Source of the DNA: Nocardioides sp. T2.26MG-1 | GTDB lineage: Bacteria; Actinomycetota; Actinomycetes; Propionibacteriales; Nocardioidaceae | Direction of reading: 5' to 3' | Length of the DNA: 64,000 nucleotides | Assembly: GCF_950101795.1 (NCBI RefSeq) | Contig: NZ_CATNLZ010000001.1 | Span: forward strand, 503,382 to 567,381 | Shown here: positions 10,976 to 60,219 of the stretch, one piece after another | Layout: every line of letters begins with the position of its first letter | How positions within the stretch are numbered: the stretch's first letter is position 1 | Translations under genes and position numbers: made by a program | The notes under the pieces: generated by a model | Told to the model about the DNA's origin: nothing | Seen by the model: only the letters and a program-made list of their open reading frames with translations | Database searches by the model: none

Positions 10976-11797
10976 ATGAGCGACCAGCCCTCCCCCTCGC
11001 CCGCGCTGTCGTTCGGTGACGTCGCGGCCGCCTACGACCGCGCCCGCCCCTCCTACCCCCGCGAGGCCGTCGCCTGGCTCGCCGGCGAGCAGCCCGCGAC
11101 GGTCCTCGAGCTCGGCGCCGGCACCGGCAAGCTCACCTCCGTCCTCGTCGCCCTCGGCCACGACGTGCACGCGACCGACCCCGACGAGCAGATGCTGGCC
11201 GTCCTTCGCGAGCGGCTCCCCGACGTGCCCACCTCGGTCGCGGGCGCCGAGGACCTGCCCGCCGCGGACGCGTCGTACGACGTCGTGGTGGTCGCCCAGG
11301 CGTTCCACTGGTTCGACCACGAGCGGGCGCTGCCCGAGATCGCCCGGGTGCTCAAGCCCGGGGGCCGGCTGGCGGTCGTGTGGAACGCCCGCGACGAGCG
11401 GATCCCGTGGGTGCGCCGGCTGGGTGCGCTGATCGGCAGCCCGGAGCAGCTGCGCTCGATGGAGCAGGTGGAGTCCAGCGAGCTGTTCGGCCCGGTCGAG
11501 GAGGACACGCTCCGCCACTGGCAGGTCGTGGACCGCGAGTCGATCGCGGACCTCGCCCTCTCGCGCTCCGCCATCGCCACGCTCGACGCGGAGGCGCGGG
11601 CCGCGAAGCTCGCCGAGGTCGTGGCGTTCTACGACGACTTCGGGCGCGGCATGGACGGCATGCAGCTGCCCTACGTCGCCTGCTGCTTCCGCAGCACCGT
11701 CGCCGAGCGGGCCACCCCTGCCGCCGAGACCGACGAGGGCGCCGCACCGGTCACCGACGGCTCCGACACCGACATGCTGCTCATCGACTTCCGCTGA
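10976..11797 (+). CDS. Class I SAM-dependent methyltransferase
   Basis: A 273-residue protein of the UbiE/Methyltransf_11 type. Motif I VLELGAGTGKLT binds S-adenosylmethionine (residues ~43-54). Motif II region DVHATDPDEQML and post-motif segments VVVAQAFHWFDHERAL and EIARVLKPGGRLAVVWN follow. The HWFDHE stretch is typical of actinobacterial small-molecule methyltransferases; the substrate is unknown. The ATG at 10976 fits the leaderless promoter. Only 2 nt separate its stop from the sensor kinase ATG, so it may lead the LytS/LytTR operon. Confidence 0.85.
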   Translation: MSDQPSPSPALSFGDVAAAYDRARPSYPREAVAWLAGEQPATVLELGAGTGKLTSVLVALGHDVHATDPDEQMLAVLRERLPDVPTSVAGAEDLPAADASYDVVVVAQAFHWFDHERALPEIARVLKPGGRLAVVWNARDERIPWVRRLGALIGSPEQLRSMEQVESSELFGPVEEDTLRHWQVVDRESIADLALSRSAIATLDAEARAAKLAEVVAFYDDFGRGMDGMQLPYVACCFRSTVAERATPAAETDEGAAPVTDGSDTDMLLIDFR

Positions 11798-30569: not shown

Positions 30570-30634
30570 TAGGGTGGACGGCGGTGAGCCGGGAAGTCTG
30601 GTCGGCACGGTGACAGACGACCCTGAGGAGCCCC
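30570..30634 (+). promoter_or_regulatory. nhaA promoter and conserved 5' leader
   Basis: The -10 TAGGGT (30570-30575) is followed after 7 nt by a 24-nt block beginning at 30583, GGTGA-GCCGGGAAG-T-CTGGTCGGC. The same block, 22 of 24 identical, follows the same -10 at the same spacing before the gene at 32553. CCGGG can pair with the following TCTGG/CCTGG across an AAG loop, and the one loop-side change preserves pairing (G:U versus G:C). The leader is 52 nt and ends in GAGGAG. It is a candidate structured or cation-sensing leader. Confidence 0.6.
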
Positions 30635-31942
30635 ATGCCTGACGCCCACCCCGCCGGCCCACCCGGGACCGGCCGCCCCCGCCTGTTCGCCCGCGGCTCG
30701 TTCCTCGAGACGTCCCGCACCGCGCACATCCTGCGCGCGGAGACCACCGGCGGGCTGCTGCTCATCACCGCCGCCGCGATCGCGATGACCTGGGCCAACA
30801 CGCCGTGGTCCGAGGCGTACGCCGACCTGCGCGACCTGCGGGTCGGCCCGGAGGCGTGGCACCTCGACCTGACGCTCGGCTCCTGGGCGGGCGACGGCCT
30901 GCTGGCGATCTTCTTCTTCGTGGCCGGCCTGGAGCTCAAGCGGGAGTTCGTGGCCGGCGACCTGCGCGACCCGCGGCGGGCCGCCCTGCCGGTGGCCGCG
31001 GCGGTCGGCGGGATGGTGGTGCCCGCCCTGGCCTACGCGCTGTGGAACCTCGGTGCCGACGGCGCCCTCGAGGGCTGGGCCATCCCGACGGCGACCGACA
31101 TCGCGTTCGCGGTCGCTGTGCTCGCGGTGATCAGCACCCACCTACCCTCGGGCCTGCGCACGTTCCTGCTGACGTTGGCGGTCGTCGACGACCTGTTGGC
31201 GATCACGATCATCGCGGCGTTCTACACCAGCGACCTCCGCCTGGCCTACCTCGCCGCGGCGCTGGTGCCGATCGCGATGTTCGGGTTCCTGGTCCAGCGA
31301 CGCGTGCACCGCGGCTGGATGCTCGTCCCGCTCGCGCTCGTCGCGTGGGTGCTCGTCCACGAGTCCGGGGTGCACGCCACGGTCGCGGGCGTCCTGCTCG
31401 CGTTCACCGTCCCGGTCGTGCGGTCCGACGGCAACACCGGCCCCGGCCTGGCCGAGCACCTCGAGCACCTGGTCCGTCCGGTCTCGGCGGGCATCGCCGT
31501 ACCCGTCTTCGCGTTCTTCGCCGCCGGCGTCACGATCGGCGGCCTCGACGGGCTGCGCGGTGCGCTGACCGATCCCGTCGCGCTCGGCATCGTCACCGGT
31601 CTCGTGGTCGGCAAGACCGTCGGGATCGCCGGGTCGACCTGGCTGCTGCACACGTTCACCAAGGCCGACCTCGACGACGAGCTGAGCTGGATCGACGTCA
31701 TCGGGATGTCGATGCTCGCCGGCATCGGGTTCACGGTGTCGCTGCTGATCGGCGAGCTCGCCTTCGGCTCGGGGAGCGAGCACGACCACGTCAAGGTCGC
31801 GGTGCTCGTGGGCTCACTGCTCGCCGCCGTCCTGGCCGCCGTGGTGCTGCGGCTGCGCAACCGGGTCTACCGGCACCTGTGCGAGGTCGAGGAGGCGGAC
31901 GCCGACCGCGACGGCGTGCCCGACGTGTTCGAGGAGCGCTAG
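30635..31942 (+). CDS. nhaA: Na+/H+ antiporter NhaA
   Basis: A 435-residue antiporter with 12 predicted helices. The ion-binding aspartate pair is in [10 protein letters not shown], and the pH-sensor region [18 protein letters not shown] and [15 protein letters not shown] are conserved. It exports Na+ (or Li+) in exchange for protons. A soluble C-terminal tail ([20 protein letters not shown]) is acidic and resembles a calcium-binding loop (DADRDGVPD). The leader shared with the gene at 32553 suggests common regulation. It converges with the CBS gene, with 6 nt between stops. Confidence 0.95.
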
Positions 31943-31948
31943 GACCTG

Positions 31949-32437
31949 CTAACGCGGCTCGGTCGCTCCGCGCTCGCCCAGCCGCTCCGGCAGGATCTCG
32001 CGGAGCACGGTGGTGAGTGTGATCGCGCCGATCATCGGCGCGGTCTTGCCCGGACCGTCCACGACGGCCACCAGGGGGCTGCGCTCGACGACCATCAGCA
32101 CCGCGACCTCCAGCACCGTGTCGTCGGGCCGGACCACCGGCAGGTCGTCGTGGTCGCGGGGCAGCAGCTCGGCGACGGTCTTGCCGACCAGGGCGTCGCA
32201 CATCTGGTCGACGAACGAGTCATCGACGACGGAGGCGAGCTTCACGTCGTCCTGGAGGTAGCCCGGGATCACCAGGCGGAGGACCTGCGACCCGGGCAGG
32301 ATCGCCACCGGGTGGTCGTGCTCGTCGACGACGACCAGCGCCGGCCGGTGGTGCTCGGTGAGCAGCCGGGCCGCCTCGACGGCGCTGCTGCCGAGACCGA
32401 CGGTCGGGTACGGTTCTGCGAGCTCACTGGCCAACAC
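31949..32437 (-). CDS. CBS-domain pair protein
   Basis: A 162-residue protein with two CBS motifs (PYPTVGLGSSAVEAARLL ... RPALVVVDEHDHPVAIL; then DLPVVRPDDTVLEVAVLM ... RSPLVAVVDGPG). Such Bateman modules bind adenosine nucleotides and usually regulate a partner, here possibly the adjacent ion transporters. Start: the GTG at 32437 follows TAGCGT by 7 nt on the minus strand (leaderless). A longer frame up to 32575 would run over the divergent promoter and the start of the next gene, so I reject it. Confidence 0.82.
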   Translation of the reverse strand: MLASELAEPYPTVGLGSSAVEAARLLTEHHRPALVVVDEHDHPVAILPGSQVLRLVIPGYLQDDVKLASVVDDSFVDQMCDALVGKTVAELLPRDHDDLPVVRPDDTVLEVAVLMVVERSPLVAVVDGPGKTAPMIGAITLTTVLREILPERLGERGATEPR

Positions 32438-32486
32438 CCTGGCGACGCTATCCCACGTGCCCCTCGTCGGCGAGCGCGGACGACGA

Positions 32487-32552
32487 TAGGGTCGAGCCAG
32501 GTGTGCCGGGAAGCCTGGTCGGCGTCGTTCCGCCAACCCCTCAGGAGCCTGT
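32487..32552 (+). promoter_or_regulatory. Promoter and conserved 5' leader, second copy
   Basis: TAGGGT (32487-32492), 7 nt, then from 32500 GGTGT-GCCGGGAAG-C-CTGGTCGGC, nearly identical to the nhaA leader at 30583. The leader ends with AGGAG (32543-32547), 5 nt before the GTG. Its -10 region lies 38-50 bp from the divergent CBS promoter. Confidence 0.6.
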
Positions 32553-33827
32553 GTGGCCATCGTCGCCGTCGTCATCTTCCTCTGCGCCTACGCTCTCCTG
32601 GCGTCCGAGAAGGTGCACCGCACGAAGGTCGCCCTCGGTGGCGCCGCCCTGATGCTGCTGCTGCGCATCACCGACGCCGACCACGCGTTCTTCTCCGACC
32701 ACACCGGCATCGAGTGGAACGTCGTCTTCCTGCTGCTCGGCATGATGGTGATCGTCGCCGTGCTGCGCCGTACCGGCGTCTTCGAGTACGTCGCGATCTG
32801 GGCCGCCAAGCGCACCCGCGGGCGGCCGTACGCCCTCATGGTGATGCTGTGCGTGCTCACCGCGGTCGCCTCCGCGCTGCTCGACAACGTCACCACGGTC
32901 CTGCTGATCGCGCCGGTGACGTTCCTGGTCTGCCAACGCCTCGGGCTGCGCCCGGTGCCGTTCCTGATGGCCGAGGTCTTCGCCTCGAACATCGGCGGCA
33001 CCGCGACGCTCGTCGGTGACCCGCCCAACATCATCATCGCCGCCCGTGGTGGCCTCACGTTCAACGACTTCCTGGTCCACCTCGCGCCGATCGTGGTGGT
33101 GCTGATGGTGGCGTTCTGCCTCCTGTGCCGGTGGCTGTTCCGGCGCGACTTCGTCTACGACGCCGAGCGGGCCGCGTCGGTGATGCGGCTCAACGAGCGC
33201 GAGGCGATCACCGACCGGGGCATGCTCATCAAGGGCCTCGGCGTGCTCGGTCTGGTGATGATCGCGTTCGTCCTCCACCCTGTCCTCCACTACGAGCCGT
33301 CGGTGGTGGCGCTGCTCGGGGCCGGGCTGCTGCTGCTGATCACCGACGTCGATCCGGTCGACGCGATGGGCGAGGTCGAGTGGCCCACCCTGGCCTTCTT
33401 CGCGGGGCTCTTCATCATGGTCGGCGGCCTCGTGGAGACCGGCGTGATCGCCGACGTCTCGCAGGCCACGGCGGATGCGACCGACGGACGGCTGGGCCTC
33501 GCCACCATGGTGCTGCTCGGCGGCTCGGCGGTCCTGTCGGCGATCGTCGACAACATCCCGTACGTCGCGACGATGAGCCCCGTCGTGTCCGACCTGGTCG
33601 CCGCCCAGGGATCGGGCGGGCACGTCCTGTGGTGGGCGCTCGCACTCGGCGCGGACCTCGGCGGCAACGCGACCGCGATCGGCGCGTCGGCCAACGTCGT
33701 GGCCCTCGGCATCGCCGCGCGGGAGGGGCACCCGATCGGGTTCTGGGAGTTCACCAAGTACGGCCTGGTCGTGACCGTCGTGACCATCGCGCTGTGCGTG
33801 CCCTACCTGTGGCTGCGCTACCTCTGA
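32553..33827 (+). CDS. NhaD/ArsB-like ion transporter (IT superfamily)
   Basis: A 424-residue protein with about 11 helices. Two inverted half-motifs mark the ArsB/NhaD/P-protein family: SALLDNVTTVLLIAPVTF with EVFASNIGGTATLVGDPPNIII, and SAIVDNIPYVATMSPVV with LGADLGGNATAIGASANVVALGIA. Known members move Na+/H+ (NhaD), arsenite (ArsB) or carboxylates. No arsenic-resistance genes are nearby, and the leader is shared with nhaA, so I favour cation/proton exchange. Start GTG at 32553. Confidence 0.85.
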   Translation: MAIVAVVIFLCAYALLASEKVHRTKVALGGAALMLLLRITDADHAFFSDHTGIEWNVVFLLLGMMVIVAVLRRTGVFEYVAIWAAKRTRGRPYALMVMLCVLTAVASALLDNVTTVLLIAPVTFLVCQRLGLRPVPFLMAEVFASNIGGTATLVGDPPNIIIAARGGLTFNDFLVHLAPIVVVLMVAFCLLCRWLFRRDFVYDAERAASVMRLNEREAITDRGMLIKGLGVLGLVMIAFVLHPVLHYEPSVVALLGAGLLLLITDVDPVDAMGEVEWPTLAFFAGLFIMVGGLVETGVIADVSQATADATDGRLGLATMVLLGGSAVLSAIVDNIPYVATMSPVVSDLVAAQGSGGHVLWWALALGADLGGNATAIGASANVVALGIAAREGHPIGFWEFTKYGLVVTVVTIALCVPYLWLRYL

Positions 33828-60142: not shown

Positions 60143-60219
60143 CGGGCTGTGGCGCAGCTTGGTAGCGCGCCTCGTTCGGGACGAGGAGGCCGCAGGTTCA
60201 AATCCTGTCAGCCCGACCA
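60143..60219 (+). tRNA. tRNA-Pro (anticodon CGG)
   Basis: Complete cloverleaf: 7-bp acceptor stem CGGGCTG/CAGCCCG, D arm GCGC/GCGC with AGCTTGGTA loop, anticodon stem CCTCG/CGAGG with loop TTCGGGA (anticodon CGG), T arm GCAGG/CCTGT with loop TTCAAAT (its last pair G·T), discriminator A and encoded CCA. Reads CCG codons, frequent in this high-GC genome. Corresponds to proY next to Rv3683 in M. tuberculosis. Confidence 0.97.

Follow-up and report, generated by a model that had tools for sequence, protein, structure and literature searches.

What might two neighbouring genes for cation transporters of unrelated families share that calls for nearly the same 24 nt in front of each? The question is raised by a locus of Nocardioides sp. 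T2.26MG-1 that lies within a stretch of 64,000 nt, analysed as a whole and termed the window below. According to the original prediction, each of the two blocks follows a TAGGGT hexamer at a distance of 7 nt and is succeeded by an AGGAG site, and all of these features are indeed in place (Table 1). A recount of copy 1 (GGTGAGCCGGGAAGTCTGGTCGGC, ahead of nhaA) and copy 2 (GGTGTGCCGGGAAGCCTGGTCGGC, ahead of a CitMHS/NhaD-like gene) likewise bears out the claimed identity at 22 of 24 positions, with the differences falling on positions 5 and 15. When up to three mismatches were allowed, the window contained these two matches, and 100 shuffles of it contained none; the exact core GCCGGGAAGYCTGGTC occurs twice in the entire 5.1 Mb genome, both times in these two blocks. 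A covariance model built here (R1) scored copy 1 with 44.3 bits (E 3e-08) and copy 2 with 43.8 bits (E 3.9e-08). The next-best place in the window, at 11410–11439 (17.6 bits, E 0.048), is without a −10-like hexamer nearby and was taken as chance.

The first gene encodes NhaA (PF06965, E 9e-133; TIGR00773 above its cut-off). The second transporter had been described as NhaD/ArsB-like, which is fair inasmuch as its best profile match is CitMHS (E 1e-95) and ArsB matches also, whereas the NhaD part was not confirmed, its matches to the NhaD and NhaB models being weak and below their NCBIfam cut-offs. Between the two transporters lies a gene for a CBS-domain protein, divergent from the second of them, whose open frame as listed runs under element copy 2. 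Elsewhere in the window, a tRNA gene at 60143–60216 (+) is the sole Rfam match at gathering score.

Table 1. Coordinates of the features at the locus, given as positions of the window.
Feature	Position	Strand	Basis or remark
−10-like hexamer TAGGGT, copy 1	30570..30575	+	7 nt gap to block
Element copy 1, 24 nt, before nhaA	30583..30606	+	sequence match, model R1
Helix 5′ strand (bases 6–10), copy 1	30588..30592	+	covariation-supported
Helix 3′ strand (bases 20–24), copy 1	30602..30606	+	covariation-supported
CGACC, complement of bases 18–22, candidate alternative partner just 5′ of the ribosome site	30618..30622	+	enriched in related leaders
AGGAG, probable Shine–Dalgarno site of nhaA	30626..30630	+	sequence
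nhaA, Na+/H+ antiporter, 435 aa	30635..31942	+	profile matches
CBS-domain protein, open frame between both transporters, start provisional	31949..32575	−	similar to CBS proteins behind the element elsewhere
−10-like hexamer TAGGGT, copy 2	32487..32492	+	7 nt gap to block
Element copy 2, 24 nt, before CitMHS/NhaD-like gene	32500..32523	+	sequence match, model R1
AGGAG, probable Shine–Dalgarno site of the second transporter	32543..32547	+	sequence
CitMHS/ArsB/NhaD-like transporter, 424 aa, GTG start	32553..33827	+	profile matches

Distribution and downstream genes

Within the genus, GCCGGGAAGNCTGGTC was found in 188 of 196 genomes, and the pattern read backwards in 3. Across the phylum, a 17-base form (GCCGGGAAGNCTGGTCG) is present in 78/296 genomes and 57/193 genera (reversed control: 3 genomes); for genomes of the same class, a hand count gave 31/33, and of the two remaining ones, G401 carries a compensated variant. 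When named genome contigs were scanned, at least 119 stretches with the element came up, and the 80 titles among the matches listed bear names that we take to be all of Actinomycetota. Carriage by viruses was considered and rejected: the 18-base core occurs in ten viral stretches, but the GGNGNG start in none of them, and they were taken as chance.

A test blind to the motif started from a NhaA-family search over the phylum (present in 148/296 genomes), from which 80 nhaA upstream regions were taken by rank after the first 30 rows, with 10 rows in the rank range skipped and one genome (G328) added from lower down. Thirty-six of these regions come within 0–3 mismatches of the consensus and 44 show six or more, i. 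e., background; the reversed consensus always had at least 7 mismatches and the antisense strand at least 6. The 30 top-ranked loci divide into 10 with 0–1 mismatches and 20 with at least 6. Presence of the element before nhaA is all or nothing, and a covariance-model search for distant variants in the 44 block-free regions gave nothing convincing (best 14.8 bits, E 0.098). Bases 9–14 and 16–21 are invariant in 36/36 motif-blind nhaA sites, to which this statement is confined because most search patterns fixed those letters. Many exact sites per genome occur in G131 (6), G154 (4), and G318 (9), some of them within a few kb. Furthermore, four loci of one genus (L319, L321, L322, and L323; family f81, genus g226) carry a related string with CGGGAAGTCTGGTCGACCG that is without a −10 hexamer, lies near GACGGTACAGTACCGTC-type repeats, and looks like a different element.

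At 157 of 164 sites, there is a gene downstream on the strand of the element, so that the orientation is sense at every site with a readable gene; the 7 sites without usable gene were left out of the downstream-gene count. The pattern-only sample (L051–L169) comprised 133 sites with 127 readable downstream genes, the clusters of which were labelled from one or two scanned representatives each. These are NhaA (73), CPA1 antiporters (11), CBS proteins (8), KimA-like potassium importers (3), and CitMHS/NhaD-like transporters (2), followed by ABC ATPases (4), PPS/rifamycin-phosphotransferase-like proteins (3), alpha/beta hydrolases (3), DUF2254 (2), DUF6653 (2), and 16 singletons that include one TrkH and one TrkA_N protein. 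Seven of the 8 CBS genes are followed on the same strand, in one operon, by a gene related to the second transporter of the window. If the CBS genes are counted in, 99/127 downstream genes belong to monovalent-cation transport in several unrelated families. Scattering of the block at unrelated genes, which the original prediction had named as an argument against itself, is thus seen in part, as 28/127 genes lie outside cation transport (including ABC exporters, a glycosyltransferase, and an FAD-dependent oxygenase), whereas 99 lie within it. Several genes behind the element resemble those for drug export or modification, namely PPS/rifamycin-phosphotransferase-like (L082, L108, L117), EryCIII-like glycosyltransferase (L146), ABC ATPase (L069, L096, L117, L164), and FAD oxygenase-like genes (L110). 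In one genus, the element precedes an ABC ATPase gene in a T6/A24 form (L340, L341, L342).

Helix, helix foot and promoter

The original prediction proposed a small hairpin CCGGG-AAG-YCTGG (6–11/15–20), in which the one change between the copies keeps pairing. This hairpin did not withstand the comparison: among 45 distinct sequences, it has zero two-sided changes, and it is unpaired at 6/20 in three sequences (the three T6/A24 variants) and at 11/15 in 12. The supported helix pairs bases 6–10 with 20–24 instead. For the two window copies, folding energies are −5.1 and −7.2 kcal/mol for the rejected hairpin vs −5.5 and −5.3 kcal/mol for the helix 6–10/20–24, and on these modelled values the former may possibly act as a competing fold.

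Natural variants were searched for as sites with one helix base off consensus and the partner left free. A changed base 7 was met at 15 places in 394 genomes, 10 of which lacked TANNNT before the block and were set aside as chance; the five with a −10 hexamer, from five families, all combine T7 with A23. Base 23 was changed in 3/197 genomes, with two cases being the same T7/A23 sites and the third an uncompensated C7/A23 before a CPA1-like gene. Both changes of base 8 (2/197 genomes) are T8/A22, and among the four of base 6 (4/197), the three with hexamer are all T6/A24 from one genus, while the fourth (L343, without hexamer) was dropped from the count. No change of base 9 with 21 free was found in 197 genomes. 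Altogether, 10 compensated sites stand against a single uncompensated one, plus one G6–U24 wobble. In the alignment of 45 distinct sequences, 3/4 helix pairs show compensatory (two-sided) changes and 99.4 % of cells are paired; the covariation score of 0.198 (0.075 when shuffled) was reached in 0/500 shuffles, which ignore relatedness, and slid versions of the helix score at most 0.066. RNAalifold found the helix 6–10/20–24 unaided. Against it, thermodynamic folding gave the 4-bp hairpin a mean probability of 0.002. Many instances before antiporters with compensatory changes, which according to the original prediction would speak in its favour, are thereby on record (99/127 genes in cation transport; 10 compensated sites vs 1).

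A separate rule governs bases 5 and 25, which lie at the helix foot. C5 goes with A25 in 62/67 sites and T5 with G25 in 100/130, while A5 is partnered by A (21), G (12), or C (9) and in no case by T. The mutual information reaches 0.496, compared to at most 0.086 in 500 shuffles, and the genus, the genome contigs, and the phylum/class sites, taken as separate subsets, all show this trend. Among the 45 distinct sequences, 28.9 % have a standard pair at 5/25, fewer than the 46.4 % of the shuffles; Watson–Crick pairing is thus avoided here. Since the wobble pairs C-A and U-G resemble each other in shape, the rule may be stated in two ways: a wobble pair is formed, or position 25 takes a purine that makes no Watson–Crick pair with base 5. 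In both versions, it is an RNA shape rule, and a palindromic DNA site would be expected to show the opposite.

As to the promoter, TANNNT stands 7 or 8 nt ahead of the block at 156/239 sites, as compared to 1.2 sites per position at gaps of 20–70; most blocks would therefore start at the first transcribed base, and we infer from the −10 hexamer that the block is transcribed. Upstream of the element, no −35 signal was recognised (TTG in 5/176), and the region upstream of the −10 shows mild preferences only; C or CA is often found directly before the block. Among 59 sites without near hexamer, 29 have TA[AG][AG]NT within 60 nt upstream vs 8 in the next 60, and some blocks would therefore sit deeper in the leader. 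Four sites of one family (f3; L276, L278, L286, and L289), with a common CTCA(T)-ending stretch ahead of the block, have a likely −10, judged by eye, ~21–35 nt before the element, and the transcript would hence start upstream of it.

In sum, helix covariation, the 99/127 theme, and the leader position make the element conform to one general expectation of a riboswitch, that of a conserved structured leader RNA of related genes. The element is most likely RNA. From the original idea of a cis-acting RNA leader, the leader element before antiporters of unrelated families has stood and its RNA nature is favoured on balance, while the proposed hairpin has fallen.

A candidate translational switch and competing readings

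How such a small RNA may act is suggested by a box further downstream. Only two 5-base windows of the motif, 18–22 and 19–23, have complements that exceed all 200 leader shuffles: CGACC (complement of 18–22) occurs in 63/145 leaders (shuffled mean 25.5, largest 39) and CCGAC (complement of 19–23) in 41 (shuffled mean 24.5, largest 35). When each genus or named group is represented by a single site, CGACC remains in 17/41, and other orderings of its letters reach 0–5/41, save for the overlapping GACCC (16), CCGAC (12), and CCCGA (10). The usual start of GACC is 15–20 nt ahead of the start codon, which puts it immediately 5′ of the ribosome site. The preceding base is C or T in 58/77 cases and would pair with G23; the following base is rarely A (6/75), which is the base that would lengthen the pairing. 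CGACC is missing from 82/145 leaders and also from that of copy 2 in the window, and the pairing of the box is without covariation support, as among the helix variants only one (L311) has the matching UCGACC. Pairing with CGACC and formation of the helix are mutually exclusive. Against a switch of this kind, the hairpin, when forced, comes out less stable than the alternative fold by a median of 8.1 kcal/mol. The narrow ribosome site is about equally open in both folds (0.46 with the hairpin, 0.47 with the alternative), and a wider region, which includes the box itself, differs modestly (0.49 vs 0.40). The enrichment of CGACC hints at a translational switch.

The reading we prefer, for which we see about an even chance, is that the 24-nt leader element works as an RNA hairpin and, as a predicted translational ON switch, responds to Na+ or pH stress. 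The helix 6–10/20–24 with its invariant loop, at or near the 5′ end of the mRNA, would form the sensor. Without signal, bases 18–23 would pair with the (C/U)CGACC box just 5′ of the Shine–Dalgarno site and get in the way of the ribosome. The hairpin would be stabilised, and translation of the transporter turned on, by the signal, for which Na+ or something linked to Na+/H+ balance is the likeliest candidate. That the helix is taken as the putative ON state is owed to the analogy with Li+ riboswitches, which are activators of nhaA. A bolder version, which we consider tentative and rather doubtful, ranks this among the smallest ion switches in nature: a ~20-nt hairpin at the 5′ tip of the mRNA would directly sense cytoplasmic Na+, or H+ via the wobble-type C-A/U-G foot, and serve as a general Na+/H+ homeostasis switch of Actinomycetota for NhaA, CPA1, NhaD-like, KimA-like, and Trk proteins from separate leaders.

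The strongest competitor, albeit an unlikely one in our estimate, retains the hairpin and has it read by a salt- or pH-dependent RNA-binding protein that holds the loop and controls translation or decay, so that the RNA itself would sense nothing. An invariant loop in 36/36 motif-blind nhaA sites would suit such a protein, as would a hairpin that is very small and disfavoured by folding energy alone, and the widely varying distances between element and ribosome site; the CGACC box, however, would then be needless.

Rather improbable is a DNA operator that overlaps the transcription start and is bound by the regulator of a salt-stress regulon. It would account for the fixed gap of 7–8 nt to the −10 hexamer in 156/239 sites and for the absence of a −35 signal (TTG in 5/176), as is the case for regulated promoters, and changes from C-G to T-A keep a palindrome as well as a helix. 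A check of operator symmetry showed 4-bp arms that are indeed complementary and co-varying; yet the 11 bases between them are invariant and asymmetric, the half-sites would lie 15 bp apart from centre to centre, and bases 5/25 follow T-G/C-A and break complementarity. Moreover, sites without a near −10 often have a farther one (29/59 within 60 nt vs 8), which likewise argues against an operator tied to the start.

The effects of initially transcribed sequences on RNA polymerase have been proposed for promoter-proximal elements, and the block could in this way influence pausing or escape and leave the ribosome aside. We regard this as quite improbable: in most cases the predicted transcript starts with the element, and G1, G2, and G4 are invariant in 180 promoter-bearing sites (letters that were partly fixed by the search patterns), but in the minority with a likely −10 farther upstream, the element would not be at +1. 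A conserved leader peptide read from the GTG at bases 2–4 is scarcely credible, given that this start is present in 158/180 promoter-bearing sites but missing in 22, and that variation in the 36 motif-blind nhaA sites affects the residue-changing position 15 but none of the synonymous positions 10, 13, and 16, whereas a leader peptide would be expected to keep its start and to let synonymous positions vary. Equally little can be said for a K+-stabilised two-layer G-quadruplex, for which the consensus would offer four GG tracts (1–2, 10–11, 18–19, 22–23), as 8/180 promoter-bearing sites lose G22 or G23 and thereby one tract, and 7 of these keep the helix via a second change.

Relation to known leader elements

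The original prediction could not match the block to the nhaA-I, nhaA-II, or DUF1646 motifs, and a comparison with Rfam 15, the library of which presumably includes these three models, came to the same result: no family matched at the element, neither in the window nor in 20 related nhaA leaders, permissive filters included. The models that overlap the window blocks are those of snoRNA and miRNA (E 0.88 to 8.8), all of which fall well short of the gathering score. In the open-access literature, as far as its partial coverage reaches, no earlier description of the element was found, and in the accessible text of structured-RNA surveys of 50 and 26 genomes, the word nhaA is absent. To our knowledge, no sensor has been described by which actinobacteria set their antiporter levels, and the literature searched yielded none. 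What has been found is a real, very widespread leader element tied to sodium/proton and potassium transport that is, as far as searched, undescribed. If the preferred reading as a hairpin switch is true, one tiny, near-invariant RNA controls several unrelated ion-transporter families across much of the phylum to which soil bacteria, antibiotic producers, and mycobacteria belong. The case further suggests that covariance pipelines can miss very short RNA elements on account of their near-lack of variation. Experimental work could start from a defined RNA of 26 nt, from disruptive and compensatory variants that occur in nature, and from a list of genes.

Several known systems invite comparison. 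The ydaO/c-di-AMP riboswitch controls genes for K+ and osmolyte transport, KimA among them, and is a much larger RNA. Ion-transport genes are thus common to both, but the present element is far smaller and without Rfam match. The Na+-I riboswitch (DUF1646 motif) is, according to the accessible text, a leader RNA controlling sodium-related genes (PMC9337991). The element shares this setting; the two are told apart by Rfam match, of which its sites have none. The rifamycin-associated element of actinobacteria, as far as its accessible description goes, is a short conserved DNA sequence upstream of rifamycin-induced genes (PMC8655204). Here, the likeness lies in a short, conserved, upstream element and in 3/127 genes that are PPS/rifamycin-phosphotransferase-like, whereas the main genes are cation transporters; the two are set apart by description, not by letters. 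A further case is that of the Li+ riboswitches, which are described in the available text as leader RNAs most often found before nhaA, with reporter fusions activated by Li+; "actinobact" does not occur in that text. Although the element differs from them in sequence and architecture (constructs of the Li+ aptamer comprise ~70 nt) and by its lack of a Rfam match, it resembles them, so far as that text tells, in being a leader element that lies mostly before nhaA genes.
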